Source: an uncultured Flavobacteriales bacterium
Lineage (GTDB): Bacteria; Bacteroidota; Bacteroidia; Flavobacteriales_D; Parvicellaceae
Assembly (NCBI GenBank): GCA_943788755.1
Contig: CALSRM010000003.1
Location: 1,054,001 to 1,118,000, forward strand
Length of the DNA stretch: 64,000 nucleotides
Direction of reading: 5' to 3'
Shown: in pieces, positions 6,314-46,900 of the stretch
Numbering within the stretch: the stretch's first letter is position 1
Layout: every line of letters begins with the position of its first letter
Translations under genes and position numbers: made by a program
The notes under the pieces: model-generated
The model's input: only the letters and a program-made list of their open reading frames with translations
What the model was told of the DNA's origin: nothing
The model's database searches: none

Positions 6314-6943
6314 TTAACTGTTCCAAAGAAGGTATTTGAATGAAAGGCTTAGAAGTCTCGGGTAAATTAATCCAGGCCTGATGGTTTGTACGGCCATGTT
6401 TCCGGCATTTTTAAAATCTCTAAACAACCCAACGCCAACTTCTATTTCTATTCCAATAATCCAGTCTTTGTTGAGTTTGTAGTCTATTCCGCCAATAGGA
6501 GCAACACCAAAGCCAAAATCATCTCCTTGCCACATGCCGGTGCCTATTTGTGAACCTCCTCTTCCGGACATAGTATAAAATATATCGGCGCCATATATAA
6601 AATCAAATTTATTTAATGAAACTAATTTTTCAAATCCAAGATTGAAATTGAGTGGTACAAAATAGTACTCTCTTAGGTTTCCATTTTTCAAAGAAGAGAT
6701 TGCTGATGAAACACCAAAGCGAATATATAATTCAGTGCCAATTTCATGGTGATATTCAGCCATATATCGTATTGTTTTCGGGAAAGGATTGGAGTCATTC
6801 AAAATAACTCCGATAGTTTCAGCAATATTCGAAATACCAAAGCCAATTTTTTGTTTCGGATGAAAGATGGTGTCTGTATCACTTTGACTTTCTATTTGAA
6901 TAGAGAATCCAGAAAGAATCAAAATAAGAAGAAGAATTCTCAT
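6314..6943 (-). CDS. Hypothetical outer-membrane beta-barrel-like protein
   Basis: I do not recognise a named family. The 209-residue protein has an N-terminal signal peptide (about residues 1-19, ending IESQS). It then shows alternating polar/hydrophobic stretches rich in Gly, Tyr and Phe, such as LGFEKL and IGIEIEVGVGLF, typical of a small outer-membrane beta-barrel. The last residues contain aromatic positions (FKYLLWNS), as in barrel C-termini. Its ATG overlaps the stop of the upstream Rieske-like lipoprotein gene by one base (TAATG), so the two are probably translated together and may work together in the envelope. Function is unknown. Confidence 0.7.
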   Translation of the reverse strand: MRILLLILILSGFSIQIESQSDTDTIFHPKQKIGFGISNIAETIGVILNDSNPFPKTIRYMAEYHHEIGTELYIRFGVSSAISSLKNGNLREYYFVPLNFNLGFEKLVSLNKFDFIYGADIFYTMSGRGGSQIGTGMWQGDDFGFGVAPIGGIDYKLNKDWIIGIEIEVGVGLFRDFKNAGNMAVQTIRPGLIYPRLLSLSFKYLLWNS

Positions 6944-7368
6944 TAATTATAAATGTGTAATGTATTCGCTAGTCCATCATAAGTAGATTGGTATTGCTGA
7001 AGTGGCATGGTAGCTGGTCCATTGGTTATCGCGCCATCATACAGTTGATACTGACTTCCATCACAATCACAGCTTATTGCCAAATTCGTTGAGTCAACAG
7101 ATGCTGGAGTGCATGTAGCGTTTACATCATATGTACAGTGCCTATCATAAACCATAAAAGTTTCAGCCGTCTGTCGATAAACGATTAATCCTTTACTTCC
7201 ACCAGAAACATAAACCCATCCTCCGATTACATTTAGGGTATTATAAGAGGGTAATGTTATGTTAAGGTATAAGTCAACAGGGATATATGGGACTCTATTT
7301 TCATTTTTCCTACAGGAAAAAGAAAATAACAGCAGTATTATTAACGCAATAGATAATCGCTTTACCAT
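6943..7368 (-). CDS. Lipoprotein with a degenerate Rieske-type fold
   Basis: This 141-residue protein has a lipoprotein signal (hydrophobic stretch, then FSFSC with the lipid-attachment Cys19). Its C-terminal half follows the layout of Rieske [2Fe-2S] domains. Box I is at RHCTY (Cys78) with Cys86 nearby; box II is CDCDGSQY (Cys100, Cys102), followed by the typical GPATMPLQQY segment. In canonical Rieske proteins the iron ligands are C-x-H and C-x-x-H. Here the cysteines remain, but both histidines are replaced (Tyr80, Asp103), so a normal cluster is unlikely. The second cysteine of each box (86 and 102) could still form the family disulfide. It is co-transcribed with the beta-barrel-like gene downstream. 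Role unknown. Confidence 0.72.
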   Translation of the reverse strand: MVKRLSIALIILLLFSFSCRKNENRVPYIPVDLYLNITLPSYNTLNVIGGWVYVSGGSKGLIVYRQTAETFMVYDRHCTYDVNATCTPASVDSTNLAISCDCDGSQYQLYDGAITNGPATMPLQQYQSTYDGLANTLHIYN

Positions 7369-7419: not shown

Positions 7420-7701
7420 ATGAATAGACTTATTAAAATAATAACGCTTATAACATTGTTTATGTTGCCTCAAGTAGGTTTTACTCAAAATGATGGGCCA
7501 AGGAATCGAACATTTGAAAGAGCAGAAAAGAAAAAGGAAAAGCAAAAGGGAAATGAGGATAAAATTGTAGAGAAACATCATAAGAGGATACAAGACAAGG
7601 ATACCCTAAAACGCATGAAGAAGACAAAGAAAAAAGCTAGACGTCATAAAAAAGGGAAATATGAAGATCCGTTTTATAAAAAGTGGTTTAGGAAAAAATA
7701 G
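7420..7701 (+). CDS. Small exported lysine/arginine-rich protein
   Basis: A 93-residue protein I cannot place in a family. Residues 1-22 form a signal peptide (hydrophobic core, ending GFTQ). The mature part is extremely basic, with many KK, KKK and RR runs, few hydrophobic residues and an end at KKWFRKK. This looks disordered and suited to binding an anionic partner such as lipopolysaccharide, nucleic acid or an acidic protein, but that is inference. The gene is monocistronic, divergent from the lipoprotein pair and followed by a 260-bp gap. It is probably a real gene because it has a clean signal peptide and a plausible promoter. Confidence 0.62.
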   Translation: MNRLIKIITLITLFMLPQVGFTQNDGPRNRTFERAEKKKEKQKGNEDKIVEKHHKRIQDKDTLKRMKKTKKKARRHKKGKYEDPFYKKWFRKK

Positions 7702-7961: not shown

Positions 7962-10900
7962 ATGTTAAAAAAAGTTACTTTATCATTCATTGCTTCTTTA
8001 TTCATTGCGTTTTCGGTATCAGCACAGGGAGCCACTGGAGCTAGTGTCAAAGGAAAAGTTGTTGATAAAAGTGGTGAGCCACTTCCGTTTGTGAATGTAG
8101 CAATATTGCAAAATGGAAATGTAAAGTCTGGTGCTACAACTGATTTTGATGGTAAATATAAAATTGCAAATATTGATGCTGGTAAATATGATTTAACAGT
8201 CAAGTTCGTGGGCTATAAGACGTATAAGATTGAAGGTGTTGTTGTTAAAGGTGGTCAGTTATTGCCGATGAAAGATATTGTTTTATCAGAGTCGAGTGAG
8301 TTACTCGAAGTGGTTGAGGTTGTTACCTATAAAGTACCTTTAATTGACAAAGACGGTGGAGCTTCTGGTGGAACTGTAACAAGAGAAGATTTGGCAAGAA
8401 TGCCCGGTAGGTCTGCAGCCTCTATTGCTACAACAGTTGGTGGTGTGCAATCAGATGCGAATGGTAATATTACCTCTATTCGTGGATCTCGTAGCGATGC
8501 AACTTATTACTATATAGATGGAATTAAGGTTAGAGGATCTTCTTCTTTACCTAAATCAGCAATTGAGGAAGTTTCCGTAATTACTGGTGGTCTTCCTGCT
8601 AATTTTGGTGATGCAACTGGAGGTATAATCTCCATTACAACTAGAGGGGCTTCAAGATTTTACTTTGGTGGAGTTGAAGTAGTGTCTTCTGGTTTTAAAT
8701 TGGGAGAAAAGACATATGGTTTGGATCATTACGGATACAATTTAATTGAAGGTATTGTAGCAGGACCTTTATTAATGAAGAAAGATAGTACTGGAAAGAA
8801 AACAGATCCTTTATTAGGTTTCTTTATTTCAGGAAACTTCACATCTGCTGTTGATTCAAGACCTCTTGGCTTAACGCAGTATAGAATTACAGACTCAGCA
8901 CGAGCTGAATTAACGGAAAATCCATTAAGACCAACTGGAACTGGTTTTGGAGCGTTTTACAATACAGATTTTTTAAATACTTCAGACTTTCAAGAAGTGA
9001 AATTCAGACAAAATGTTCCATCGAAAAATGCTTCTCTTGCCGGGAAAATTGATGTGAACGTTGGTCCAAATGTGAATTTAACATTTGGAGGTTCTGGAAG
9101 TTACAGTAATTATCTAGCCGGAAGTTGGGGTGGTTCTTTAATGAATTATGATAACTACCCATTAATCCAGTCTTTCAGTTGGAGAACCTATGGTAAGTTC
9201 ACGCAGCGTTTTCAATCTATAATGGAAGAAGGTGAGGAAAGTAAAGGTGGTGTCAAAAATGCTTTCTATACTATTATGGTGGATTATTCTAAAAATAATT
9301 CTAAGACACAAGATGCAAAACATAAGGACAATCTTTTTGGATATGGATACGTTGGTAAGTTTGAAGTAGAACAGGCTAAATCATATGAGTTCAGAGATTT
9401 TGATGGGGATGGACAGGTTGATCGAGTGCACAATGGATTAAATGATGTAGAGGTTACGTTTACACCTGACACCTCAGATTTGGCGAATGCTGAATTGGCG
9501 GCTATTACTAATCAATACTATACATTGTATGATGATGTTTTTGAGAACTATGAAAACTTTACGCAATTATTAGATGGTGGTGCTTTATTGAACGGTATGT
9601 TGCCCGCTAGTGTTTATGGTTTGTGGACAAATATGGGAACTCAATACAATGGGTATTCGAAAACAGATGCAACGCAATTTCGTGTTACTGCTCAAGGTTC
9701 TGCAGATATAGGGGATCACGCAATTGCAATTGGCTTTGAATACGAACAAAGGACGGATAGAAGTTTTTCCGTTAGTCCAGTAGGTCTTTGGACTCTTGGA
9801 AGATTATTAGCTAACAGTCATACGGATAATGGTAGAGCACTGGATGAAAGCGATTATTATGTTACTCAGTTTGGTACATTTTCACAATATGATTTCGCTA
9901 CTTTAAGTGGTGCAGGAGCTACTTATGAAGGAGGCGGTGAACAATCTTTTTTCGATTATAATGTCAGAAATGCACAAGGAATGAATCCTACAGGAAGCGA
10001 GTATTTAAATATTGATGAATTAGATCCAAGTACTTTCTCTTTAGATATGTTTAGTGCTGATGAGTTATTAAATCAGGGTTCCAATTATGTTTCTTATTAT
10101 GGTTATGATTACAAAGGAAATAAATCAAAAGATAATCCAACGTTTAACGATTTCTTCACTGAAACAGATGAGTTTGGGAATTTTACCCGTCCAATGGGGG
10201 CCTTCGAACCAATTTACATGTCTGGATACATAATGGATAAGTTTGCATTTGATGATTTAATTTTTAACGTTGGTCTTCGTGTAGATAGATTTGATGCAAA
10301 TCAACAAGTATTAAAGGATAAATATTTGTTATATAGTGCTAGAACAGTTGGTGAAGTATCGGATATTGACGGTGTTGAAATCATTCACCCAGAAAATATT
10401 CCTGATAATGCGATTGTATATGTAAATGATATCGATGATCCAACGGGAATTAATGGATATAGAGTTGAGGATACTTGGTATAATGCATTCGGTGCTGAAG
10501 TTACTGACCCGTCAGTATTGGAAACAAGTGCCGGAATAGCTCCTTATTTACAAGATGGTGTAAACCCCTCTGATAATATTTCACAAGATGTATTTGAAGA
10601 TTATACTCCTCAAATTGTTGTGATGCCCCGCATTGCATTTTCATTCCCAATTTCAGATGAAGCTTTATTCTTTGCGCATTATGATATCTTATCAAAAAGA
10701 CCAACTACAGGGAATCGTTTAAACCCTTTGGATTACTACTATATGAAAAACAGAAATGTTGTGGTTAATAATCCTGATTTAAGACCAGAAAAAACAATTG
10801 ATTATGAATTAGGCTTTCAGCAAGTATTAAGTAAAAGATCTTCTTTAAAGTTATCTGTATTCTACAGAGAGCAAAGAGATCAAGTGTCATTAATTAATGT

Positions 10901-11675
10901 TACTAATGCATACCCTCGTACATACAGAACATGGGGGAATATTGATTTTGGAACAATTAAAGGTATGACAGTAGCTTATGATTTAAGAAGATCCGGTAAT
11001 ATTACATTAAGAGCTGCTTATACGCTGCAGTTTGCTGAAGGTACTGGGTCAGATGCATCATCTTCATTGAACTTAATTAATTCAGGGCAACCTAACCTTA
11101 GAACTATTTTCCCTTACAGTTATGATCAAAGACATCAATTGACTGGAACAGTTGATTTTAGATATGGAGAAGGAAAAGATTATAATGGTCCGGTAATGGG
11201 AGGAAAGCAAATCTTGAAAAATACAGGTATCAATATGGTTATAAATGGTTCTTCTGGGACGCCATATAGTGCTCAGGAACAAATTAGTCCTGCCGCGCCA
11301 TTAAACCCAACTTCTGGAACACTTGATGGAACTGTAAATGGTTCACGTAAACCATGGCAAGTTAGATCGGACATGCAAATTGATAAAAACATAATTTTAA
11401 AATTTGGTAAAGGAGAGGAAAAAAAGAAATCTGCCAACTTAAATGTTTATTTATTGGTTAATAATGTTTTAAATACAATAAACATTACCAATGTTTATCG
11501 AGCTACGGGTAACCCTGATGATGATGGCTATTTGAATGCTGCGACCTATCAAGCAGGTATTCAAAGTCAAAACGATGAAGCATCTTTTAGATACTTATAT
11601 GCATTAAAAGCAAATAACCCATATAATTATGGAATACCAAGAACTATTCGTATAGGAGCAAAATTAGATTTTTAA
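7962..11675 (+). CDS. TonB-dependent receptor with N-terminal carboxypeptidase-regulatory-like domain
   Basis: Large (1237-residue) outer-membrane receptor. A signal peptide (1-21, ending VSAQ) is followed by a CarboxypepD_reg-like beta domain (about 28-108, with VKGKVVDKSGEPLPFVNV and FDGKYKI). Then comes the plug domain (about 130-230, with YYIDGIKVRG and ANFGDATGGIISI), and the rest is a beta-barrel ending in an aromatic residue (AKLDF). No SusD-like gene follows. Instead it is 19 bp upstream of a 1374-residue T9SS-like cargo and then a PorV/PorQ-family barrel, so it belongs to an export or surface cassette rather than a glycan-uptake locus. The ligand is unknown. Confidence 0.9.
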   Translation: MLKKVTLSFIASLFIAFSVSAQGATGASVKGKVVDKSGEPLPFVNVAILQNGNVKSGATTDFDGKYKIANIDAGKYDLTVKFVGYKTYKIEGVVVKGGQLLPMKDIVLSESSELLEVVEVVTYKVPLIDKDGGASGGTVTREDLARMPGRSAASIATTVGGVQSDANGNITSIRGSRSDATYYYIDGIKVRGSSSLPKSAIEEVSVITGGLPANFGDATGGIISITTRGASRFYFGGVEVVSSGFKLGEKTYGLDHYGYNLIEGIVAGPLLMKKDSTGKKTDPLLGFFISGNFTSAVDSRPLGLTQYRITDSARAELTENPLRPTGTGFGAFYNTDFLNTSDFQEVKFRQNVPSKNASLAGKIDVNVGPNVNLTFGGSGSYSNYLAGSWGGSLMNYDNYPLIQSFSWRTYGKFTQRFQSIMEEGEESKGGVKNAFYTIMVDYSKNNSKTQDAKHKDNLFGYGYVGKFEVEQAKSYEFRDFDGDGQVDRVHNGLNDVEVTFTPDTSDLANAELAAITNQYYTLYDDVFENYENFTQLLDGGALLNGMLPASVYGLWTNMGTQYNGYSKTDATQFRVTAQGSADIGDHAIAIGFEYEQRTDRSFSVSPVGLWTLGRLLANSHTDNGRALDESDYYVTQFGTFSQYDFATLSGAGATYEGGGEQSFFDYNVRNAQGMNPTGSEYLNIDELDPSTFSLDMFSADELLNQGSNYVSYYGYDYKGNKSKDNPTFNDFFTETDEFGNFTRPMGAFEPIYMSGYIMDKFAFDDLIFNVGLRVDRFDANQQVLKDKYLLYSARTVGEVSDIDGVEIIHPENIPDNAIVYVNDIDDPTGINGYRVEDTWYNAFGAEVTDPSVLETSAGIAPYLQDGVNPSDNISQDVFEDYTPQIVVMPRIAFSFPISDEALFFAHYDILSKRPTTGNRLNPLDYYYMKNRNVVVNNPDLRPEKTIDYELGFQQVLSKRSSLKLSVFYREQRDQVSLINVTNAYPRTYRTWGNIDFGTIKGMTVAYDLRRSGNITLRAAYTLQFAEGTGSDASSSLNLINSGQPNLRTIFPYSYDQRHQLTGTVDFRYGEGKDYNGPVMGGKQILKNTGINMVINGSSGTPYSAQEQISPAAPLNPTSGTLDGTVNGSRKPWQVRSDMQIDKNIILKFGKGEEKKKSANLNVYLLVNNVLNTINITNVYRATGNPDDDGYLNAATYQAGIQSQNDEASFRYLYALKANNPYNYGIPRTIRIGAKLDF

Positions 11676-11694
11676 GAATTTATTACATTATAAC

Positions 11695-14600
11695 ATGAAG
11701 ATTATGAATAAAATAACATTACTTCTAATAGCATTTGTTTTCTTTGGAAATCATGCAAGGGCTTGGTACGACCATGGCAAATCTGCAAATGGAGATGATG
11801 GTAGTAAACCAGTAAATTCATTTCAGTTGAAAGCTGCTAACTGTGCTCCAGCCTCAACATTTGGATATTTAGAGTTTAATAATGTTAAAGCATTAATAGA
11901 AACGGGTGGTAGTATGTATCAAAACCGATCTACCGGCTCCCCTTCTTATGAAGTGCCAGTTGGATCTGGAGAAACAGTTATTTATGCAGGTGCTTTATGG
12001 ATGGGTGGCCTGGATGTTAATAACCAGTTAAAATTAGCTGCTTTGACATTTCGGCAAGGAAATGATTTTTGGACAGGACCTTTGTCTGTTACTCCTGGAA
12101 CTGGTAATCCAGCTATTGCCATTAAAGATTATGGACCTGCAGCAGTTGAGCCTGAAACTTGTCTTGAATATGATAACTTTTATATTACCACAAAGCAAGA
12201 GGTAGCAGAATTTAATGGATGGTATGAATGTACACAAAATGAAGATTGTGATGAAACAATAGAATATGTAGGATATTCCATTCCGAATAGTATTTTGAAT
12301 TGGCCAGCTCATGGTGATATTAATAAATTTCAAGATTTTTATTTAGCTCCATTTTATGATAGAGATGGTGATGGACTCTACAATCCTGTTGGAGCGGGAG
12401 ATTATCCTTGGTATGATTTGGATAATTCTGTTGATTGTAGAACTAGTCGTCAGGTTACTTTATTTGGAGATTACAACATGTGGTGGGTGTTTAATGACAA
12501 AGGAAATATTCATACGGAGACAAATGGAGATCCCATTGGAATGGAAATTAGAGCACAAGCATTCGCATTTGCTACGAATGATGAAATTAATAACATGACA
12601 TTCTATAATTATGAGATGATTAATCGATCAACTCAAACGCTTACAGAGACATATTTCGCAGTATGGCTTGACCCAGATATTGGATGTAGTGAGGATGATT
12701 ACGTAGGTTGCGATGTTCAAAGAGGTCTAGGGTACCAATATAATGCGGATGCGATAGATAATGATGGATGCAATGGAACACAAGCAATTGGCGCAAATCC
12801 TCCAGCGATTGGAGTTGATTTCTTTGAGGGGCCTTACCAAGATAATGATGGTATTGATAATCCCCTTACAACTGATATTAGTTTAGCGAATGCGGATAAG
12901 GGAATTCCCTATGCTGGTTTAGGTATTGGTTATGGCGATGGTGTTATTGATAATGAACGTTTCGGAATGAGACGATTTGGGTATTTTGATAGAAACTTAC
13001 CTGCTAATATTTATGGAGATCCTAACTTAGCAATTGATTTTTACAATTATATGCTGGGAACTTGGTTAGATGGAACACCTTATACTTATGGTGGTGATGG
13101 CCATGGAGGAACACTGAGCACTGATTACTGTTTTCCAGGAGATACTGATCCTTATGGATGGGGACAAGATGGTACTGTAATGCCAGATTGGACGGAGGTT
13201 TCTGAAGGAAATATTAAGTTTGACAGAAGATTTTTCCAAGCTGCGGGTCCATTTACGTTGCAGCCAGGAGCATTAAATAACATTACATTTGGTATTGTAT
13301 ATGCTAAATCAACATCTGGAGATCCTTTTCAATCTGTTGAATTAGTTAGAAAAGCAGATGATAAAGCGCAAGCGTTGTTTGATAATTGTTTTCAAATTTT
13401 AGAGGGACCTCCTGCTCCTAATCTTGCGATTCAAGAATTAGAAAATGAATTAATTATTTTCTTAGAAGGAACACAAAAAATTGAGACTTATGAAACCGTC
13501 GATCCTTTAATTATTGCTTTAGGCGAAGGGTATGATAGTACATATGTGTTCCAAGGTTACATGGTTTATCAATTGATTGATGGAACGGTTAGTCCTTCTG
13601 AATTAACTGATGTGGATAGGGCTCGATTAGTAGCTCAATGTGACATCAAGGATGGAGTTGATCAATTAGTAAACTTTACGTTTAACGAAGACTTTGGAGC
13701 AAATGAAGCAGAAGAAATGGTTGACGGTGAAGATATTGGAGTGAGACATTCATTCCAGTTCTTGGAAGATGAGTTCGCATTGGGAGATAAAAAGTTAATA
13801 AATCATAAGAAATATTATTATATGGCTATTTCTTATGGATATAATAACTACAAGCAGTATGATGGGATTACTGGTCAAGAAAAACCTTACATCGGAAGTA
13901 GATTAAGTGTCTCAGGAACTCAAATTACAAGTTTTGTTGGTATTCCTCACTCTCCTTCACCCGAATATGGTGGAACCGTTCAGAATAGCGTATATGGAGA
14001 TGGGCCTGAAATTACGCGAATTGAAGGCCGTGGAAATGGAGGTAATGTACTTGAATTAACTGAAGAGTCAGAGGCAGATGTCATTGCTAATTATACGCCA
14101 AAGGAAGTAACTTATGCTGGTGGAGCAGGGCCAATTGATATTAAGGTTATTGATCCATTAAATGTTCAAGCAGGAGATTATATACTGACAATTCTTCCTG
14201 ATGGCAATCCACAAGGCAATTCTACGCAATTGGATAGTTCGAAATGGTATGTAATTAACACTTCCAATCCTTTAGATACGATTCATTCTGAACAAACCAT
14301 AGAACTTGGAAATGAGCAATTAATACCAGAATGGGGAATATCTATTAATATTCAGCAATATCAGTATGAAGAACTATCACCAAATGTATTTACAACAGAG
14401 TTGATCAGTTCAGAAATTGTATTTGCTGATTCATCAAAAAGATGGCTAACTGGTGTACAAGATGCAGATGGTAATACTTCTCAAAATTGGATTCGTTCAG
14501 GTACGTCAAGTGAAGATTGCGATGCGGACGCATATCCTGATGCATGTTGGTCTGAAGGTCCAACAGGTGAGGTTGGCGATCCTTGTATTTACAACGATTT

Positions 14601-15819
14601 TATAGGAGATGATGACCTTGAAGTTTGGGAGAAAGTAGTAGAAGGAACTTGGGCTCCATTTAAAATGGTCGCAAATCGTGATTGTAAAGATATGCCGGTT
14701 AGTAATGCAATGAATGGCGGACAGAACGCTACTAAACTTAGTCAATTAAGTAGTGTTGATATTGTAATAACTGCTGATAAATCAAAGTGGTCTAGAGTTG
14801 TAGTGCTAGAATCTCAAGATAATAGTAATTTATCTTGGAACGGGTCGACAGCTAAATTAATGCCGAAAAAGCGACCTTCAGTTGGGAAAAATGGATTACC
14901 GGATGGTGACGGTGTTGGGATGAGTTGGTTTCCTGGATATGCTATTGATTTAGAGTCAGGAGAACGTTTAAATATGGTTTTTTCCGAGGACTCTTGGTTA
15001 GGTAACGAAGGAGGAAAAGACATGATATTTAACCCTTCTGCAAATATGTTTGCAGGATTTGGATTCAATTCGCCAACATTATTTGGAGGGAAGCATTATG
15101 TGTATGTATTCAAAAATTACAGAAAGGAACAGCCTTCTAGTAGTCAGTTTTCTTCAAATATGCCCGCATATGATGAATGTGCATTTATTAGAAGTAAGAT
15201 AGTTGACAATACTAACCCTAATGCTGGAGATTTTTTAAAAGTATGGCGAGCTTGTATGTGGGTTGGTATACCTATGCTATCTGAAACTGCAGTGGGCTTG
15301 GCTGATGAGTCAGATCCTTTTTCTTATATAGAAACAGATGTTAGAATTAAAATTAGAGTTGCTAGTGCTTACGCGAAACATTCTATAAATGCGCAACACT
15401 TTTCTAATACTGGAGGAAGTGTTAATGATTGGTGTCCATTATATGAATTCAATATGGATAGTTTAGCGGTTAGCACAGAAACATTTGTTCCAGGTGATAG
15501 TATATTATCTCTTATCAATGTTGTTCCAAATCCGTATTACGCTTATTCTAACTATGAGGGTAATCGATTAGATAATTTAGTTAAAATAGTGAACCTACCT
15601 GATCAGTGTACGGTTAAAATATATACCGTAAATGGTATATTAGTTAGAACATTTAATAAGGACAACAGCGTAACTCATATAGAATGGAATTTAAAAAACT
15701 TTAAGAATATTCCTATTTCAAGTGGGTTGTATTTAATTCATGTAGATGTTCCTAACGTTGGTGAAAGAGTGTTGAAATGGTTTGGTGTGATTCGACCTCC
15801 AGATTTAGATAATTTCTAG
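11695..15819 (+). CDS. Large exported protein with T9SS type A-like C-terminal domain
   Basis: A 1374-residue secreted protein. A signal peptide (about 1-23, ending HARA) precedes a long beta-rich, Gly/Asn/Asp-rich body. A possible calcium-binding Asp-rich stretch (DRDGDGLYNP) is near residue 220. The last 90 residues resemble T9SS sorting domains: VVPNPYYAY, then VKIYTVNGILVRTF, SSGLYLIHVD and a GERVLKWFGVI end. This predicts export across the outer membrane by the type IX system, with surface attachment or release. No enzyme motif is seen. It sits between a TonB-dependent receptor (19 bp upstream) and a PorV/PorQ-like barrel (46 bp downstream), which suggests a functional trio. An internal ATG at codon 4 could also start translation. 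Confidence 0.8.
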   Translation: MKIMNKITLLLIAFVFFGNHARAWYDHGKSANGDDGSKPVNSFQLKAANCAPASTFGYLEFNNVKALIETGGSMYQNRSTGSPSYEVPVGSGETVIYAGALWMGGLDVNNQLKLAALTFRQGNDFWTGPLSVTPGTGNPAIAIKDYGPAAVEPETCLEYDNFYITTKQEVAEFNGWYECTQNEDCDETIEYVGYSIPNSILNWPAHGDINKFQDFYLAPFYDRDGDGLYNPVGAGDYPWYDLDNSVDCRTSRQVTLFGDYNMWWVFNDKGNIHTETNGDPIGMEIRAQAFAFATNDEINNMTFYNYEMINRSTQTLTETYFAVWLDPDIGCSEDDYVGCDVQRGLGYQYNADAIDNDGCNGTQAIGANPPAIGVDFFEGPYQDNDGIDNPLTTDISLANADKGIPYAGLGIGYGDGVIDNERFGMRRFGYFDRNLPANIYGDPNLAIDFYNYMLGTWLDGTPYTYGGDGHGGTLSTDYCFPGDTDPYGWGQDGTVMPDWTEVSEGNIKFDRRFFQAAGPFTLQPGALNNITFGIVYAKSTSGDPFQSVELVRKADDKAQALFDNCFQILEGPPAPNLAIQELENELIIFLEGTQKIETYETVDPLIIALGEGYDSTYVFQGYMVYQLIDGTVSPSELTDVDRARLVAQCDIKDGVDQLVNFTFNEDFGANEAEEMVDGEDIGVRHSFQFLEDEFALGDKKLINHKKYYYMAISYGYNNYKQYDGITGQEKPYIGSRLSVSGTQITSFVGIPHSPSPEYGGTVQNSVYGDGPEITRIEGRGNGGNVLELTEESEADVIANYTPKEVTYAGGAGPIDIKVIDPLNVQAGDYILTILPDGNPQGNSTQLDSSKWYVINTSNPLDTIHSEQTIELGNEQLIPEWGISINIQQYQYEELSPNVFTTELISSEIVFADSSKRWLTGVQDADGNTSQNWIRSGTSSEDCDADAYPDACWSEGPTGEVGDPCIYNDFIGDDDLEVWEKVVEGTWAPFKMVANRDCKDMPVSNAMNGGQNATKLSQLSSVDIVITADKSKWSRVVVLESQDNSNLSWNGSTAKLMPKKRPSVGKNGLPDGDGVGMSWFPGYAIDLESGERLNMVFSEDSWLGNEGGKDMIFNPSANMFAGFGFNSPTLFGGKHYVYVFKNYRKEQPSSSQFSSNMPAYDECAFIRSKIVDNTNPNAGDFLKVWRACMWVGIPMLSETAVGLADESDPFSYIETDVRIKIRVASAYAKHSINAQHFSNTGGSVNDWCPLYEFNMDSLAVSTETFVPGDSILSLINVVPNPYYAYSNYEGNRLDNLVKIVNLPDQCTVKIYTVNGILVRTFNKDNSVTHIEWNLKNFKNIPISSGLYLIHVDVPNVGERVLKWFGVIRPPDLDNF

Positions 15820-15865
15820 GAGAGTTGATTAGATTGAAACGAATTTTTGTTAAATAAGAATAGAT

Positions 15866-16933
15866 ATGAAATTAAGTAAAAGTATTAGAATTAGTTTAGT
15901 AATAGCAGGAATGCTTGTCGCTTCACTTCCTACATTTGCTGGTAATGAAGATAGAGCTGGATCGGCTGGCGCTACTGAGTTATTAATAAACCCATGGTCA
16001 CGTAGTTCATCTTGGGGAGGTGCTGGAGTTTCTTCAATTAAAGGTTTGGAGGCACTATTTTCAAATGTTGCAGGCTTGGCTTATGCAGATAAAACAGAAA
16101 TTATATTTGCTAGAACTAACTGGTTAGGTGGTATTTCAGATATCGCGTTAAATGGATTTGGTTTGGCACAACGGGTTGGGGAAACTGGTGTTATCGGGGT
16201 TTCGATAATGTCAATGAATTTTGGAGATATTCCAATTACTACTACCGAATTGCCAGAAGGGAATATTGGTACATTTAAACCAGTTTTTACTAATATTAAT
16301 TTGGCGTATGCAAGACAGTTCTCTTCTTCTATCTCAGGGGGGTTAAATTTAAAGGTAGTTTCTGAGGCAATTTCTAATGTTAAAGCTTCGGGTGTTGCTA
16401 TTGACATAGGAATTAGATACGCAACAGGAGAAAATGATCAAATTAAATTTGCAATTAGCTTAAAAAATGTTGGAGCTCCGCTGGAATATAGTGGTGATGG
16501 CATCTCACTAGAAATGTTAAATCCGAATACGGGTATTCTTATTACTTCGGAACAGCGTGTTTCTTCTTTTGAATTACCCTCTTTACTGCATATAGCAGCT
16601 TCTTATGACTTCTTATTTGATGAATCAAATAAATTAACTATGGGATTTGTTTATACTTCGAATTCATTTTCTAAAGATCAATATAGATTAGGTGGAGAAT
16701 ACACTTTTAGTGGTATGAAGCAAGCTTACTTTATTGCAAGAGCTGGATACGTATATGAAAATGGGATATTTGATAATGTAAATCGAACGAATTCTTTAAC
16801 GGGTTTATCTGCTGGGTTATCAGTTGATTTTCCAGTTGGAAAGAATGAAACCATGATTGGAATTGACTATGGTTATAGAAACTCAACTTTAGGCGGAATC
16901 CACTCTATTGGAGGTCGTATCAACTTAAAATAA
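15866..16933 (+). CDS. PorV/PorQ-family outer-membrane protein
   Basis: A 355-residue member of the PorV/PorQ (FadL-like barrel) family. The N-terminus is a signal peptide (1-25, ending PTFAG). Next comes the family hallmark GSAGATELLINPWSRSSSWGG, continuing into a SNVAGLAY segment where the family begins its barrel. The remainder alternates beta strands and ends GIHSIGGRINLK. PorV in known T9SS systems shuttles cargo from the SprA translocon to the sortase. This copy lies directly behind a large T9SS-like cargo and may serve that cargo only, which is inference. It is probably a paralogue rather than the core porV, since no other core T9SS gene is adjacent. A terminator follows at 16961. Confidence 0.85.
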   Translation: MKLSKSIRISLVIAGMLVASLPTFAGNEDRAGSAGATELLINPWSRSSSWGGAGVSSIKGLEALFSNVAGLAYADKTEIIFARTNWLGGISDIALNGFGLAQRVGETGVIGVSIMSMNFGDIPITTTELPEGNIGTFKPVFTNINLAYARQFSSSISGGLNLKVVSEAISNVKASGVAIDIGIRYATGENDQIKFAISLKNVGAPLEYSGDGISLEMLNPNTGILITSEQRVSSFELPSLLHIAASYDFLFDESNKLTMGFVYTSNSFSKDQYRLGGEYTFSGMKQAYFIARAGYVYENGIFDNVNRTNSLTGLSAGLSVDFPVGKNETMIGIDYGYRNSTLGGIHSIGGRINLK

Positions 16934-16960
16934 GAGACTAAATTATATAAGTATTAGTAA

Positions 16961-16986
16961 AGAGAGTCCTATAGGAATTCTCTTTT
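16961..16986 (+). terminator. Terminator after the receptor-cargo-PorV cassette
   Basis: AGAGAGTCC (16961-16969) pairs with GGAATTCTCT (16974-16983) around a TATA loop, with one bulged A and one G-T pair. The stem runs into four T residues. It separates the 9-kb cassette from greA, 26 bp further on. Confidence 0.6.
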
Positions 16987-17011
16987 CTGGTTTAAAGAAC
17001 TCACCTCTATC

Positions 17012-17485
17012 ATGTCAAAAATTAATTACTATACTGAAGAAGGTCTTCAAGATCTGAAAGACGAAATTGAACAATTGGAAAGAATAGAGCGGCCAAAGTT
17101 GTCCGCGCTAATTGGTGCAGCAATCGACCTGGGAGATCTTTCGGAAAATGCGGAATACCATGCTGCTAAAGAATCACAGGGGCTTATGGAAGCGCGTATT
17201 TCAAAATTGAAAAATGAGTTATCAATCGCACGTTTAATCGATGATTCAAAATTGGATACGTCGAAAGCTTTAATCTTGTCTAAAGTAAAGATTAAGAATA
17301 TTAAGAACGGAATGGAGGTGGAATATACATTAGTCGCTGGTAATGAAGCAGATATAAAGCTTGGTAAAATATCTATAGATTCACCAATAGGGAAGGGGTT
17401 GTTAGGTAAATCGGTTGGAGATATAGCTCCAGTTGAAACACCTAATGGCATCATGGAGTTTGAAATTATCTCCATTTCCCGATAA
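17012..17485 (+). CDS. greA: Transcription elongation factor GreA
   Basis: A 157-residue GreA, which rescues backtracked RNA polymerase by stimulating cleavage of the nascent RNA. The N-terminal coiled-coil with acidic tip is clear (GDLSENAEYHAAKESQG, the conserved family segment), and the C-terminal FKBP-like domain ends with the typical PIGKGLLGKSVGD region. Length is standard. Start ATG at 17012 follows the terminator of the previous cassette. The HIT-family gene begins 10 bp after its stop, so the two likely form an operon. Confidence 0.96.
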   Translation: MSKINYYTEEGLQDLKDEIEQLERIERPKLSALIGAAIDLGDLSENAEYHAAKESQGLMEARISKLKNELSIARLIDDSKLDTSKALILSKVKIKNIKNGMEVEYTLVAGNEADIKLGKISIDSPIGKGLLGKSVGDIAPVETPNGIMEFEIISISR

Positions 17486-17495
17486 ATAAATTACC

Positions 17496-17885
17496 ATGAG
17501 TTCTATTTTTTCGAAAATTGTAAATGGTGAAATTCCAAGTAACAAAGTTGCAGAAGATGAAAATTTTCTGGCCTTCCTGGATGTAAACCCTTTGGTAAAA
17601 GGTCATGTTTTGGTAATACCTAAGCAAGAGGTTGATTATATCTTTGATTTAGAAGATGATTTACTTGCAGGATTAAACCTATTTGCAAAAAAAGTGGCTA
17701 TTAAGATGAAAAGGATTCTGCCTTGCGAACGGATTGGTGTTACCGTTATTGGACTTGAAGTACCGCACGCACACATTCATTTAATCCCTATAAATAGCAT
17801 TGCGGATATGGATTTTTCTAAACCTAAAAAGAAATTTGATAGCTTAGAATTAGAGAACATCGCTAAAAGTATTTCAGAAGCTTAA
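17496..17885 (+). CDS. HIT-family (histidine triad) nucleotide-binding protein
   Basis: A 129-residue HIT-domain protein. The triad is HAHIHL (His91, His93, His95) in the C-terminal half, preceded by the family start (IFSKIVNGEIPSNKV) and the VKGHVLVIPK strand. HIT proteins hydrolyse nucleoside phosphoramidates or related nucleotides; the exact substrate cannot be read from sequence. It lies 10 bp downstream of greA, a pairing I have seen in other Bacteroidota, and is probably co-transcribed with it. Confidence 0.93.
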   Translation: MSSIFSKIVNGEIPSNKVAEDENFLAFLDVNPLVKGHVLVIPKQEVDYIFDLEDDLLAGLNLFAKKVAIKMKRILPCERIGVTVIGLEVPHAHIHLIPINSIADMDFSKPKKKFDSLELENIAKSISEA

Positions 17886-27667: not shown

Positions 27668-30600
27668 ATGATAGGGATTCGAAAAAGTCTAATTGTGCTA
27701 CTGTTATTTAGTGCTGTCAGTTCCTTTGGACAAAAAACGGCTATTTATACAGATGCGTATAGAGCATATAATGATGGCCAAGATCTTTACGATAAAGAGA
27801 AATACAGTGCAGCTCAGGATAAATTTGCAGAAGTGGCAATGCATATTGAAAATAATCAAGATGAAATGCGCATCAATGCTGAATACTATTTTGCGATCTG
27901 TGCATTGGAGCTATTCCATAAAGATGCGGAGTTTTTATTGAATCGTTTTGTAACTGAACATCCAGACCATCCAAAAGGAAAATCTGTGTTTTTTCAATTA
28001 GGGAAGCACAATTATCGTTTAAAGAAATCAAAAAAGGTAATTGAGTATTTAACTAAAATTGACCCTTATGACCTATCTAAGGATGAAAGAATCGAGTATT
28101 ACTTCAAGTTAGGGTATAGTTATTTCAAACAAAAAGATTTTATTAAGGCGAAAGGCTACTTCTATGAGATTTTGGAAAAAGAGACTGAATATAAAGTCCC
28201 AGCAGTTTATTATTATAGTCACATTGCATATGCAGCTAAGAACTATCAAACGGCATTAGAAGGCTTTCAAACAATTTCTTGCGAGTCAATGTTTAAATCT
28301 ATTGCGCCATACTACATTACACAAATTTATTATAAACAAGAAAAGTATAAAAAGGTGATTGAATATGCTCCGGTTTATATGGATTCGATTAGTTCGAAAA
28401 GAAAATCAGAATTCGCTAAACTAATCGGAGACGCTTATTATTATGAGAAAAAATATAATGAAGCTATTCCCTATTTAATAGAATTCAGAAAAGGTGTAAA
28501 GGCCACTCGAGTTGATAATTATCAAATTGGGTTTGCCTACTTCGGAATTAAAAGTTATGAAAATGCAGTTAAATATCTCGCTAGAGCATCTACAAAGAAA
28601 GATGCTTTATCGCAATCAGCATATTACCACATGGCAGAATCGTATTTAAAACTAGAAGAAAAAGATTATGCAAGTAACGCTTTTAGAGCAGCGAGTAAAC
28701 TGAATTTTAACCCTGAGATATCAGAGAATTCACTCTTTAATTATGCAAAACTGGCTTACGAATTATCTTATAACCCTTATGATGAAGCAATAGAAGCTTT
28801 TCATGAGTACATTGAAATATACCCAAATTCACCTCAGGTTGAAGAAGCTTATGAGTTTTTGATACGGGTTTATATGACGACAAAGAATTATGAAGATGCT
28901 TTGGCGTCGTTAGAAAGAGTAAAAAATAAGGATGATCGGATGAAGGTTGCCTATCAAACGGTAAGTTTTAACAGAGCTGTTCAATTATTTCATAACGGAG
29001 AATATGATAAAGCGCTGAATCGATTCAAAGATGTTAAAAGGTATCCCGTTGATAAAAAATTGAACGCAGAAAGCCTGTTTTGGATTGCTGAATGCAAATA
29101 TCATAAAGGAGAGTTGGATGAGGCTATTTCGCAGTATAAAGAATTCCGAATGGAACCAGGAGCTGCTCTTACATCCGTTTTTCGTCAGGCAGATTATAAT
29201 ATAGGATATGCTTATTTTTTGAAATCTAAACCGTTTACTTATAATAGAAAAAAGACGATTACCTCCACCGAGAGAAGTGCTCATTTGCGTAGTAGCATTA
29301 CTGCATTTAGAAATTTCGTTTTATTAGAGGAGAGCGTAAAGAATAAACCTTTGATTGATGCATTCTTAAGATTAGCAGATTGTTATTTTTTGTTGTCAGA
29401 CGATGTAAAAGCGATTGAATATTTCGATAGGGTTATTGAAAAAGGAGAAGGCGATTTATCCTACGCTTACTTTAAAAAAGCAACATCTCAAGGCTATACC
29501 GAAGATCATGAAGGGAAGGCTAAAACGCTGCAAGAGTTAACCGAAAGGTATCCAAACTCTAGCTACCAAATTTTATCTATTCGGGAATTAGCAGATACCT
29601 ATAAAACGCAAGGAGAAAATCAAAAAGCCATAGCCACGTACGAACAGTTTATTCGTGACTACCCACAAAATAAATATGTGCCAAGAGCCATTGTAAACGT
29701 AGGGAGCGTTTATTTAAGTACACAAGATTATGATAAAGCAGAAAAGTATTTGGAAAAAGTGCTGCTAGAATATCCCAATGCAACTTCCGAAAATGAATCT
29801 GCAGTCTTATTAATGAAAGACATTTATAAAGGAAGAAATGATTTAGCGGGCTATTATGATTGGCTAGTAGAGCAAGGAAGAGAAGTAGCTCAATCCGAAT
29901 TGGATTCGGTTTTTTGGGAACCTGTTCAAGATGCTTGGGATCGTGGAGATTGTGCCAATATTATCCTAAAAGGAAAGGAATATAATATGAAAGTTGAAAA
30001 TGGAAGGCACAACGCGGATGCGTATTACTATATGGCTCGGTGTATTCATCAAGAAGAAAACCTAGAAGAAGCGCTTTCACATTATAACAGTGTTATTGAT
30101 AAGGTTAACAATAATAATTATGAAAATGCCTTAAAATATGCAGGTAATATTAGTTATTTCCTAGAGGACTATCACCAAGCAATTGGCCATTATTCAACAC
30201 TTGAGAAATTAGCTGCAGCAGAGGAGAATATTAGAGCTTCTATTATTGGTCAGATGCGCGGGTTTTGGAACTTAAACAATTATCAGTCGGCAATTTCGTA
30301 TTCTAATAAGACCCTATTGTTAAGCAATATTGATGAACCTTTAGAAATTGAAGCTTCACTAATACATGGGCTTTCTTTAAAAGAAACGGATAGACTGGAT
30401 GAGGCTTATATTATCCTTATTGCTTTAAGCGAAAATACAAAAAGTATTAAAGGTGCAGAAGCCAAGTATAATGCAGCGGAAATACTATTCGAGCAAGAAA
30501 AGAATGATGAGTGCGAAATTACTATTATGGAGTTGGTAAAGCAGAAACCGTCTTACGATTATTGGATAGCTAGTGCAATTATTTTGCTAGGGGATAATTT

Positions 30601-30865
30601 CATTGTAAAAGAAGATTATTTCAACGCAAAAAGTAGTCTGCAAAGTGTTATTGATAACTATGAAGGAAAAGATCAAGCAGAGATTGTGGCGTTGGCTCAA
30701 TCAAAAATTGATTATATACTTGATTTGGAAAGTCAAAGTGAAAAATTAATAGAAAAAGACGATGTGGAAATTGATTTTGAAGGTCTAGATGAAAAAGATA
30801 AAAAGCTTTTCGAGGATGAATTGGAAGAGGAGAAGGAGAAACAAAACAAAGAACCAAATAACTAG
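27668..30865 (+). CDS. Exported tetratricopeptide-repeat protein
   Basis: A 1065-residue protein with a signal peptide (about 1-22, ending SSFGQ) and many TPR-type helix pairs along its length (for example FKLGYSYFKQKDFIKAKGYF, and repeated A/Y-x-x-A-I-x-x-Y patterns). The last 50 residues are very acidic and probably coiled or disordered (EEEKEKQNKEPNN end). TPR scaffolds mediate protein-protein contacts; here they would act in the periplasm. The next gene, an outer-membrane protein, begins directly after the stop codon with no spacing. This two-gene order recurs in Bacteroidota, so the pair may form an envelope complex. Function is unknown. Confidence 0.82.
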   Translation: MIGIRKSLIVLLLFSAVSSFGQKTAIYTDAYRAYNDGQDLYDKEKYSAAQDKFAEVAMHIENNQDEMRINAEYYFAICALELFHKDAEFLLNRFVTEHPDHPKGKSVFFQLGKHNYRLKKSKKVIEYLTKIDPYDLSKDERIEYYFKLGYSYFKQKDFIKAKGYFYEILEKETEYKVPAVYYYSHIAYAAKNYQTALEGFQTISCESMFKSIAPYYITQIYYKQEKYKKVIEYAPVYMDSISSKRKSEFAKLIGDAYYYEKKYNEAIPYLIEFRKGVKATRVDNYQIGFAYFGIKSYENAVKYLARASTKKDALSQSAYYHMAESYLKLEEKDYASNAFRAASKLNFNPEISENSLFNYAKLAYELSYNPYDEAIEAFHEYIEIYPNSPQVEEAYEFLIRVYMTTKNYEDALASLERVKNKDDRMKVAYQTVSFNRAVQLFHNGEYDKALNRFKDVKRYPVDKKLNAESLFWIAECKYHKGELDEAISQYKEFRMEPGAALTSVFRQADYNIGYAYFLKSKPFTYNRKKTITSTERSAHLRSSITAFRNFVLLEESVKNKPLIDAFLRLADCYFLLSDDVKAIEYFDRVIEKGEGDLSYAYFKKATSQGYTEDHEGKAKTLQELTERYPNSSYQILSIRELADTYKTQGENQKAIATYEQFIRDYPQNKYVPRAIVNVGSVYLSTQDYDKAEKYLEKVLLEYPNATSENESAVLLMKDIYKGRNDLAGYYDWLVEQGREVAQSELDSVFWEPVQDAWDRGDCANIILKGKEYNMKVENGRHNADAYYYMARCIHQEENLEEALSHYNSVIDKVNNNNYENALKYAGNISYFLEDYHQAIGHYSTLEKLAAAEENIRASIIGQMRGFWNLNNYQSAISYSNKTLLLSNIDEPLEIEASLIHGLSLKETDRLDEAYIILIALSENTKSIKGAEAKYNAAEILFEQEKNDECEITIMELVKQKPSYDYWIASAIILLGDNFIVKEDYFNAKSSLQSVIDNYEGKDQAEIVALAQSKIDYILDLESQSEKLIEKDDVEIDFEGLDEKDKKLFEDELEEEKEKQNKEPNN

Positions 30866-43954: not shown

Positions 43955-46900
43955 TTATCTAACCACAGTTACATGCCCAATGTATTCATGTGGTTTCCCC
44001 TTGTTATCCAGCGTTCTGACTAACCAAACGTAAGCATCAACTTGCACTGGAGTTCCTTTATGTTTTCCATCCCAACCGATGTCTTTATTGTGTGCTTCGA
44101 AAATTTGTTCTCCCCAACGATTAAATACATAGAAATCATATGTCATTGCATCAATGCCGATTCCTTTTGGTATGAAAACATCATTTTTTCCATCACCATT
44201 TGGCGTAAATGCACTTGGCGCAAAGAAGATATAATCACCTTCAATATGGATGGTTTGTGTGTATATACTCTCACAAGTATCTGCGCCATTGATGCTGAAT
44301 ATCGTAAGTGTAATATCATAGTATCCAGTATCAGAATACAAGTGAGTTGGATCGCTCATAAGTCCAGTATTAGTTGAATCAACTAAGACACTATCTCCGT
44401 TTCCTGTAATCGATGTCCCATCTCCAAAGTCCCAAGAATATATTGATCCTCCAATAGAATAATCAATCATCTCAATTACTGGATTGAGTATAGAAGTTTC
44501 TGCAGGTGAAACACCAAAATTGGCTACAGGTAAATCATGAACAGTAATCATTGCAGGAGAATTTATAGTTGTAAAACATCCGTCTGCGCTGGTCACAGTT
44601 AAACATACATCATATATTCCTGGAGTTGTATATGCATAATTAAATGTATTATTTGGACCGGAGTACTCAGGTGTGCTATCACAGTCAACATCAAAATCGA
44701 AGTTAACTCCTATATCTGAGTTGGCAACAAACTGTGCTGTAAATGGAGCACACCCTGAAGAATCAAAAGCCGCAATAAATGCTTGCGGATTTGGATTAAT
44801 TGAAACAGTAGTTGACACTGTATCATTAGTGCTACATCCATCACTAAGTACCGCATAGTAAGTTGTTGGTTCACTTGGGTTCACACTCACGGTAGAAACA
44901 TTTCCAGATTGTGAGCTTGGAACAACATTTGTTAAACCTGCATCATCATACCATATAAATGTATAAGGATTTATAAGTGTATCACCTCCTGTTGCAGTGG
45001 CAACTATATCTACAGCACCTCCAGCACACATATCAATTGGAGGAGTAATTGCTAAAGTAAGTGCTGGAGTAACCGTAATCGTTACACATGAACTCACCGG
45101 CAAACAACCATTTGCATCTGACACAGAAGCACAGTATAAGGTTGTTGTAAGTGGAGAGACTGTTACAGGAGCTGAGCCAGTATTAGGTAAGTTGTCCCAA
45201 GTGACGGTATAAGTGCCATCTAAGAAAGGAGTTCCTCCTTGACCACTTGCCCATATTTGTGTTGATTCACCATAACAGATAGTTCTTTCTATATCTGCAA
45301 TAGCATTTAATGGTGATGGCTCTGTGATGTTTACCAAATCAAAAGCTATACATCCATTTCCATCTGTTACTTGCACGCCATACAAACCGTCTTCCAATGC
45401 AACCGCTGTTTGTGCTGTTTGTGCTGAAGGATCATCCCATAGGTAAGTATATGGAGCTGTTCCAGCGGAAGCATACACCGATGCATTGCCAGTGCTATAA
45501 CCATTACATAATGGCTCAACAAAAAGAATACTATCAATTACCGGAGCTGCTTCATCAATTACATTAGTTGTACTGCTAATAAGACATCCATTTGCATCGG
45601 TTACTTCGAAAGTAACAAGACCTGGGCATAGTCCAGTGTTATTACTATTGCCAGGAGAGTTTCCTAATCCGAACCAGTTATAAGCGTAAGGTGCTGTTCC
45701 ACCAGATGCAGTTATACTTCCCTCTCCATTGCAATCAGAACAAGTTGCATTTACTGTACTTGCTGATTGCACTAATTGAGTTGGCTCCATTATCGTAATA
45801 TCCATTTCTTCAGCACATCCGTTCGCATCTGTGATACGAACTGTGTAAGTTCCGGCACAAAGTCCAGCCACACCTGGAGTCGTTAATCCAATTGGAAACC
45901 AATCATATAGGTAAGGTGCTGTTCCTCCCGTAACGGAAATTTGTATCTCTCCATCACATTCCCCAAAACATGAAACATTAACGACATTATCAGCTGTAAT
46001 AACAATCGGTGTCGGTTCTCCAATTGTAACAGAACTTGAAGTAACACAATTGTTATCATCGTTTACAGTAACCGTATAATCTCCAGCACATAAACCTGTT
46101 GCTTGTTGAGTTGTCTGACCATCATTCCAGCTATATCCATAACCTGAAGCAACCAATCCTCCACTTACATCTACGGTTGCATCACCATCGCATCCTGTAT
46201 TGCAAGTCACATCGTTGAAATTAAAGATAGCAGAGTTAATCTGGGTTGGTTCAGCAATGCAAGATGATTCAGAACTTATGCAACCAGCCGCATCTGTGGC
46301 GATTAAAGAGTAACAACCTCCATCTAATCCAATTAATGTATTTAAATTACTTCCTGCTGGGATAGAGTTCCCAACATCATCAATCCATTCCAAATTAGCA
46401 GATCCTGTTCCCCCTGTAACTGCATATTGCATTGAACCATCTTGATCACCAAAACACGTTACATCTGAAGATGTGACAAAAGTAACAGTTGGCCCTTCAA
46501 TGTCATCTAAGCAAATTACGCTGTCTTCAAAACATCCGTTACCATCTGTTACCGTAAGGGTATAACAATTAGCATTTAGATTAAATGCAAAAGCAGTGGT
46601 TTGGGTCAATGCATCATTCCATTGATACACGAAAGGTAATGTTCCCCCAAAAACATTAACACCGGCAGATCCATTAAAAAGACCACAATTAGCATCCGTA
46701 ATCGATACACTCATTCCTATTTGAGTTGGCTGTGTAATGTTTACCGTTTTTGAAATTTCACATCCATTTACGTCGGTAACGAGGCAAGTATAAGTTCCTG
46801 CACACAAGTTATTGACTGTAGCAGTAGTTGCAAATGTTGGATTATTCCACTGGTAGGCATTACCACCAGAACCACCACTCACAATTACACTAGCAGAACC

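Follow-up and report, generated by a model that had tools for sequence, protein, structure and literature searches.

What do a TonB-dependent receptor, a very large surface protein and a PorV/PorQ-family barrel accomplish together when their genes lie side by side? This arrangement is found in an uncultured Flavobacteriales bacterium of the Parvicellaceae (assembly GCA_943788755.1), within a stretch of 64,000 nucleotides of contig CALSRM010000003.1 that is referred to here as the window. The original prediction, made from the window alone, described three adjacent genes separated by 19 and 46 bp and proposed either a surface complex in which the receptor imports what the exported protein captures, or a dedicated export unit with its own PorV. 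The coordinates of the open reading frames (ORFs) agree with this adjacency: the three genes, here named R, C and V, lie on one strand (+), with intergenic gaps of 19 bp (R-C) and 46 bp (C-V). We consider it fairly probable that the cassette encodes a SusD-independent, TonB-dependent uptake complex in which C, a capture subunit exported by the type IX secretion system (T9SS), is kept on V as its dedicated barrel. The genes and the two parts of C on which this proposal turns are as follows.

7962..11675, + strand: R, TonB-dependent receptor, 1237 aa (ORF list, Pfam, NCBIfam, alignment)
11695..15819, + strand: C, surface protein, 1374 aa (signal peptide, beta-supersandwich N-domain, fibronectin type III (FN3)-like and middle parts, immunoglobulin (Ig)-fold tail)
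11833..13404, + strand: N-domain of C, residues ~47-570, predicted beta-supersandwich (AlphaFold2 model and VIA realignment)
15487..15798, + strand: tail of C, residues ~1265-1368, Ig-fold of the T9SS type, nearest to the tails of PorZ and PorU (structure and profile matches)
15866..16933, + strand: V, dedicated PorV/PorQ-family barrel, 355 aa (NCBIfam, tree)

The adjacency of R, C and V is not due to chance, because their order is conserved in other genomes. Among 60 near-relative genomes, the window's own included and reaching up to order level, C is matched in 57 (34/34 of the good genomes; E<=1e-5), V in 58 at the same threshold, with 46 strong matches (E<=1e-80), and R in 52 (E<=1e-60). 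For every one of the 46 strong V matches, a C match lies 16-107 bp upstream in the same orientation. R, C and V are found on one contig at 30 loci, and the order is R-C-V in 30/30, a biased rate as these loci were preselected for such matches, for which 46/46 is the fairer figure; the genes greA and hit come next in 24 of them, and a second C lies between V and greA in 4. Fourteen of the 60 genomes are without a strong V match, several with contig ends near tandem C copies, and some of the 14 may truly lack V. At a second set of loci, the best 80 of at least 576 stretches matched by the C profile (the named loci), we placed 81 C genes scoring above 1000 bits, of which 53 are flanked directly by R and V, 42 of these within the full order R-C-V-greA-hit, while another 13 are incomplete, lie at an edge or belong to tandem copies. 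The original prediction would have been undermined by genes lying apart in most relatives; with 46/46 strong V matches beside C and 53/81 C genes flanked by both partners, the opposite is seen. Median gaps in the named loci, where gene starts were assigned mechanically, are 23 bp for R-C (n=57), 21 bp for C-V (n=56) and 82 bp for V-greA (n=47). Cultured carriers of the cassette include Crocinitomix catalasitica and Brumimicrobium oceani. In several loci (L070, L074, L075, L095, L127 and L159) a second C follows V directly (R-C-V-C), and in L078 a second C is located after hit. The two downstream genes, which belong to the conserved cassette block, are these.

17012..17485, + strand: greA, conserved cassette neighbour (NCBIfam, synteny)
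17496..17885, + strand: hit, gene for a HIT-type protein, conserved cassette neighbour (matches below NCBIfam cut-offs; synteny)

Pairwise distances of R, C and V correlate with each other beyond what greA and hit account for (partial r of 0.755, 0.782 and 0.797 in 39 complete named cassettes), and none of 1000 permutations matched these partial correlations (0/1000).

The original prediction suggested searching for the three-gene order in other Bacteroidota genomes, and there it recurs well beyond the order of the window. In a phylum sample of 296 good genomes, 96 contain a match to the C profile (E<=1e-20), many of them mainly at the tail. From these matches 20 distant loci were picked by hand, mostly with N-domain matches, 2 from the same class and 18 from other classes; R-C-V is present in 16, one of which has a 133-aa ORF ahead of V; contig ends truncate 2 others, and the last 2 have C without V. 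Most of the distant R-C-V loci are without greA-hit. PorV/PorQ-family barrels (E<=1e-8) number 6 to 24 per genome in eight genomes of other classes (24 in G324, 24 in G300 and 18 in G123, all three without a SusD match). We examined the surroundings of 40 barrels (20/24 in G324, 14/14 in G062 and 6/16 in G089) and could place 38. An R-type receptor and a C-tail protein precede the barrel in 28/38 (14/20, 9/13 and 5/5, respectively); of the other ten, two come after a 1329-aa or 1347-aa protein and probably represent PorV behind PorU, two directly follow R and six have neither in front. The trio is therefore a multi-copy class elsewhere in the phylum, with up to 14 trios in one genome (G324). 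A profile of the 28 trio C proteins aligns with the C profile of the window's order over 850 columns (probability 100, E 8.7e-64), and C is therefore one superfamily. Genes for glucoamylase, CBM9 or sugar ATP-binding cassette (ABC) transporters are found near some of the 28 trios (pooled neighbours, 25 of 107 families listed), for which we claim no enrichment because the pooled scan had no control set.

We then asked what each of the three proteins is. R carries a CarboxypepD_reg domain (residues 28-108), a Plug domain (138-222) and a C-terminal TonB barrel, all above the Pfam cut-offs, which is the architecture of Oar-type TonB-dependent receptors. No SusC-family model is among the NCBIfam matches of R at E<=0.01; the NCBIfam model of SusC/RagA-family receptors is TIGR04056. 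In G036 (L095:2192-5907) the receptor gene is in several broken pieces and C is fragmented too, which may reflect a pseudogene or sequencing errors.

V belongs to the broad PorV/PorQ family (NF033709; 136.3 bits, cut-off 90) and falls short of each of its named members: PorV (NF033710; 67.9 bits, cut-off 250), PorQ (NF033711; 66.9 bits, cut-off 220) and PorV2 (PorVQ2, NF052325; 35.3 bits, cut-off 325). The PorP/SprF model TIGR03519 does not match the window's V at E<=0.01, and matches 5/24 V orthologues (best E 4.9e-6). Membership in BamG (NF053685), considered since 3/24 V proteins match it weakly, was rejected at 17.2 bits against a cut-off of 250. In a tree, the sampled V rows group in a single clade of 39, including 4 identical pairs (support 100/98), and are separate from 12 PorV and 9 PorQ rows, with the PorV and PorQ rows drawn from the window's order only and most V rows chosen by cassette position and V-model score. 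The tree leaves out the diverged V of the multi-copy genomes (L264-L303) as well as L250 and L260, which were lost in ORF picking, and the long-branch rows L004 and L005 are unsure.

C begins with a Sec-type signal peptide, as judged by eye, and otherwise offers little to sequence searches: it matches no Pfam family at E<=0.01, nothing in a PDB sequence search and nothing in plasmid records, and across 25 C proteins Pfam matches at E<=0.1 are scattered (FlgD_ig 9, T9SS tail 5, DUF4073 2, gpD 1). A profile of the 25 against the PDB returned a weak match to the PorZ tail only (E 0.37). AlphaFold2 modelled residues 24-775 with a mean predicted local distance difference test (pLDDT) of 88.2 and a predicted template modelling score (pTM) of 0.84, and the overlapping residues 575-1374 with 88.0 and 0.85. 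The top Foldseek matches of the N-domain are glycoside phosphorylases, dextran dextrinase and GH116 glucosidases. Realigned with VIA-align, the top 15 rows reach Z 18.5-17.2 with 230-273 residues aligned at 2.9-3.7 A, the best being 9ju0 (Z 18.5, 254 aligned, 3.2 A). The matched regions are N-domains of carbohydrate enzymes and not their helical catalytic domains; this fold, shared by the N-terminal domains of glycoside phosphorylases, GH116 enzymes and glucodextranase, is called a beta-supersandwich. The N-domain of C is thus predicted to have a beta-supersandwich fold of the carbohydrate-enzyme type and, because the matched fold excludes the helical catalytic domain of these enzymes, the models make ligand binding by C more likely than hydrolysis. 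No SusD-like fold is among the listed rows ranked by Foldseek, which is no evidence of absence; residues ~755-1264 are barely covered.

At its C-terminus, C is predicted to end in an Ig-like beta-sandwich that matches solved T9SS tails. The type A tail model TIGR04183 (cut-off 23 bits) gives 18.8 bits in the protein search and 23.0 bits in the six-frame search, the latter marked over cut-off, and the type B model TIGR04131 is not among the NCBIfam matches of C at E<=0.01. A better match than TIGR04183 is the PorZ model NF052228, of which the tail of C matches the corresponding part only (30.6 bits, E 1.2e-7), far below the PorZ cut-off of 260, and C does not qualify as a PorZ. Its best structural match is likewise PorZ (Z 11.7, 2.5 A, 93 aligned), followed by PorU (Z 9.7), compared with 8.6, 7.6, 7.1 and 6.9 for the tails of the cleaved cargo proteins mirolase, NucA, RemA and RemZ. 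At E<=0.01 the PorZ model matches 21/25 C proteins and the type A model 16/25, and among the 28 trio C proteins of distant genomes the figures at E<=0.001 are 12 and 5. Four homologues of C are shorter, at 573-643 aa, and carry ordinary type A tails (42.6, 38.2, 51.9 and 38.1 bits) without a PorZ-model match; the window's own genome encodes one of the four. The very end of C is well conserved: the mean majority-residue fraction is 0.72 for its last 14 residues, compared with 0.70 for the core of the N-domain and 0.49 for the middle part. Taken from profiles and models, the tail type suggests retention of C rather than cleavage. Outside the window, the own genome encodes a 586-aa homologue of the C N-domain (L104:4347-6104); its tail is of the ordinary type A, and neither a receptor nor a PorV-type barrel was matched next to it.

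Is the machinery that such a tail calls for present? The genome (3.17 Mb, 97.4% complete, 5 contigs) encodes SprA (2515 bits), and a six-frame search with TIGR04183 gave 128 matches, 125 of them marked over cut-off, C included. At E<=0.001 it has five PorV/PorQ-family barrels: PorV (477.2 bits) beside PorU, PorQ (335.7 bits), PorV2 (497.2 bits) beside PorU2, these three each over cut-off, the cassette's own V, and a short one that stays below cut-off. The R-C-V of the window is the only such trio seen around the five. The fifth, short barrel (L005:1438-2250, 271 aa) falls below the cut-off of the PorV/PorQ family and adjoins a protein of at least 494 aa without an NCBIfam match. In the phylum sample SprA was found in 96/96 genomes with C and in 131/200 others; a listed N-domain match is present in 42/96 genomes with C, and all 42 have SprA. 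It is plausible that the T9SS exports C, with V as an extra barrel beside the shared PorV. SprA, the 125 tails over cut-off and the presence of SprA in all 96 sampled genomes with C together indicate that the common T9SS most likely exports C. The same three observations speak against the dedicated export unit of the original prediction in its strict sense, which survives only as a dedicated barrel that receives or keeps C.

The absence of a SusD gene, noted in the original prediction for the three-gene cluster, extends to the whole genome, where PF07980 has 0 matches at E<=1e-5. In the phylum sample, where SusD counts cover up to 7 scored candidates per genome and related genomes are not independent, at least 7 SusD matches are found in 5/96 genomes with C versus 62/131 genomes with SprA and without C, and at least one in 42/96 versus 108/131. 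Genomes with C tend toward few SusD. Taken singly, G000, G004, G123, G300 and G324 have no SusD match, G311, G240 and G054 have 1 each, G130 has 3, G121 has 13 and G080 has 37.

SusCD consists of a TonB-dependent channel and a surface capture protein that acts as a lid. Our trio is similar in that a TonB channel with an N-terminal carboxypeptidase-like domain is encoded with a presumed capture protein, and unlike SusCD in that R has no SusC-family match, the partner carries a T9SS-type tail and is not a SusD, and a third, barrel subunit is encoded. Both are multi-copy in some lineages and found in polysaccharide loci (compare PMC6987092). PorZ and PorU offer a second comparison: their tails are unprocessed and remain on PorQ and PorV (PMC10202324, PMC5562754), and it is to these two that the tail of C is nearest. 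Unlike them, V is a separate clade, C and PorZ have only the tail in common, and the unit includes a TonB receptor. PorV is described as recognising all type A tails, while type B tails are often linked to genes for cognate PorP/SprF barrels (PMC12618676); the trio resembles the latter in having a dedicated barrel directly downstream of one tail protein, and differs in the type A-like Ig-fold tail of C and the PorV/PorQ type of V. R shares its CarboxypepD_reg, Plug and barrel with Oar, which is required for PopC secretion in Myxococcus, and for which the available text of PMC6434023 mentions neither a partner with a T9SS tail nor a PorV-type barrel.

A published parallel in gene order is the alginate locus of Rhodothermus marinus, in which a figure legend gives a TonB receptor followed by a sorting protein of T9SS type A and then a PorV/PorQ family protein, in one locus with alginate lyases (tonB-hypA-hypB; PMC9530828). 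The text of that paper names neither SusC nor SusD, and the likeness to our cassette is one of annotation. The xylan locus of the same species also has, by annotation, a TonB-dependent receptor, then a tail protein, then a hypothetical protein (PMC6987092). Unlike ours, the Rhodothermus proteins are smaller, and in the texts available they are not discussed as a unit. In the open-licence PMC literature we found no account that treats the R-C-V trio as one unit. Of the two possibilities in the original prediction, capture and import is the one favoured, by the trio of the alginate locus, by the fold of the N-domain and by the tendency of genomes with C to be poor in SusD. Three features go beyond what the original prediction described: the inclusion of greA-hit in the conserved block, a tail of the PorZ/PorU kind and the occurrence of the trio in many copies elsewhere.

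Based on these results, we propose the following route. Sec would take C across the inner membrane by its putative signal peptide, and SprA, the common T9SS translocon, would pass it through the outer membrane. V would then take over the Ig-fold tail of C without a cut by PorU, the tail staying in place as that of PorZ does on PorQ, and C, to judge from its tail type and its pairing with V, would thus be anchored on the cell surface. Lying over or beside R, C could capture a ligand, probably a glycan or glycoconjugate, with its supersandwich domain and hand it to R, which would import it with TonB energy; by analogy with the SusCD lids, C could close over R. The trio would then be a functional equivalent of SusCD in which a barrel-anchored, T9SS-exported C replaces the lipidated SusD. 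Gene order, conservation, homology, the class of the tail, the distinctness of the barrel V, predicted folds, the lack of a SusD match and the association with the T9SS are directly supported by the data; from these we infer the formation of a complex, the retention of the tail, the direction of transport and the substrate.

Several observations weigh against this proposal. The inverse relation of C and SusD follows phylogeny, at least 7 SusD matches occur in five genomes with C and at least one in 42/96, and G062 and G089, which bear trios, hold 6 each. Two of the 38 placed barrels lie directly behind R without an intervening C, and 15/81 placed C genes have neither R nor V adjacent. In the Rhodothermus xylan locus (Rmar_1070-1072; TonB-dependent receptor, tail-bearing hypothetical, second hypothetical), a SusCD pair is found further on (PMC6987092, Table 1). 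In the window, no carbohydrate gene stands directly beside the cassette, the next genes being greA and that of the HIT-type protein. As for the fold, Foldseek gives the N-domain model a TM-score of 0.25 at most, which is low, the good figures coming from the VIA realignment, and a supersandwich by itself is no proof of sugar binding. As for the tail, unrelated Ig-like domains also reach Z 7-8.6 (Vpr 8.6, DUF3244 8.1), and PorU may cleave it, because it misses or barely reaches the type A cut-off. Moreover, L102 has a full-length C of 1396 aa that lies outside any cassette and yet retains a PorZ-like tail, and the tail ends of other orphan C suggest the same; therefore the tail type tracks the full-length C family and not strictly an adjacent V. 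Such orphan C could use a cassette V in trans.

How do other explanations compare with uptake of a captured ligand? The main rival holds that the trio serves attachment or envelope biogenesis, with C and V as a fixed pair like PorU-PorV and PorZ-PorQ for maturation of surface proteins or a glycolipid, and R as a docking site or energised gate. The nearness of the C tail to PorZ and PorU, the pairing of PorV with PorU and PorV2 with PorU2 in the own genome, and the proposed binding of sugars or A-type lipopolysaccharide (A-LPS) by PorZ (PMC5562754) are all in its favour, and the presence of C in 34/34 good relatives together with its position by greA suggests a housekeeping role. However, this genome already has PorU-PorV, PorQ and PorU2-PorV2, other genomes have several trios, in one case 14, some of them near glucoamylase, CBM9 or sugar-ABC genes (a neighbourhood without a control set), and the alginate locus (PMC9530828) stands against it as well. 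This rival accounts well for the single cassette of the window but poorly for the alginate locus and for trios in many copies, and we consider it unlikely. A doubtful yet less remote alternative, compatible with uptake, is that the trio imports something other than a glycan, such as peptides, lipids or a cofactor, with the supersandwich as a generic binding scaffold. The near-universal presence of the cassette in relatives and the absence of a carbohydrate-enzyme gene directly beside the window's copy are consistent with this variant, against which stand the alginate locus (PMC9530828) and the fold of the C N-domain itself.

Two further explanations appear very improbable to us. According to one, R acts outward, as Oar does for PopC, and R and V export C without SprA. 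C does adjoin R and V, and R has the architecture of Oar, which PopC secretion needs; however, this architecture is dominant among TonB-dependent transporters of Bacteroidota in general and therefore not specific (PMC6434023), C bears a T9SS-type tail and is found only in genomes where SprA is found, and its shorter homologues end in ordinary T9SS tails. The other, to which we give just as little weight, is that three outer-membrane genes were co-retained through the housekeeping neighbourhood of greA and hit without forming a complex. The linkage of greA and hit is itself conserved, placing the whole block under conservation of order, yet R-C-V is without greA-hit in most distant loci and is present in many copies per genome elsewhere, second C copies sit beside V, and the partial correlations among R, C and V survive the removal of greA and hit.

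Returning to uptake by R with C held on V, we tentatively suggest, as a possibility that we rate below the proposal for the window itself, that the trio represents a phylum-wide class of TonB importers linking the T9SS to uptake. Such a class would combine the capture-protein superfamily C, its own PorV-type barrel V and an Oar-type R, would replace SusCD in lineages poor in SusD, and would range from 14 trios in one genome to one near-universal, greA-hit-linked cassette in the window's order. Should the trio import ligands, the T9SS would not serve secretion alone but would build machines for uptake too, and polymer uptake in lineages without SusD would be explained. A dedicated PorV/PorQ-type barrel for one widespread protein would also change the model in which PorV is the sole shuttle of type A cargo, as described in PMC12618676.

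The original prediction also had the three genes share one terminator, a point that is weaker than the adjacency itself. In support of this, the consensus terminator scan lists no terminator-like site in the R-C and C-V gaps, which have folding energies of 0.0 and -1.9 kcal/mol, respectively, and a hairpin follows V, where the region 16934-17011 folds at -14.0 kcal/mol; against it, the hairpin is not listed by the scan and its T run is short.

16953..16991 (about), + strand: hairpin 3' of V, possible weak terminator (fold only; absent from the consensus terminator scan)

Upstream of R, a pattern scan found no Bacteroidota-type -33/-7 promoter; there is one -7-like TACATTTG at 7774 without a -33 element, and the two matches to the pattern are both intragenic. 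A sigma-70 scan gave 42 sites versus 52.6 in shuffled sequences, fewer than expected, and Rfam and tRNA searches of the 64-kb window gave no matches. Also upstream of R lie a gene for a small Rieske-like protein on the opposite strand (6943-7368, -) and one for a very basic, secreted-looking protein of 93 aa (7420-7701, +), and homologues of both recur 5' of R in many relatives.

Elsewhere in the window, a 1065-aa tetratricopeptide repeat (TPR)-type protein (27668-30865, +) matches tol-pal YbgF at 137 bits and the PorW/SprE model at 73 bits, below its cut-off of 250. A 3463-aa ORF (52048-62439, -) has no NCBIfam match at E<=1e-4, and the 2602-aa product of the gene at 43955-51763 (-) carries a T9SS tail of type B (TIGR04131; 52.7 bits, cut-off 35).

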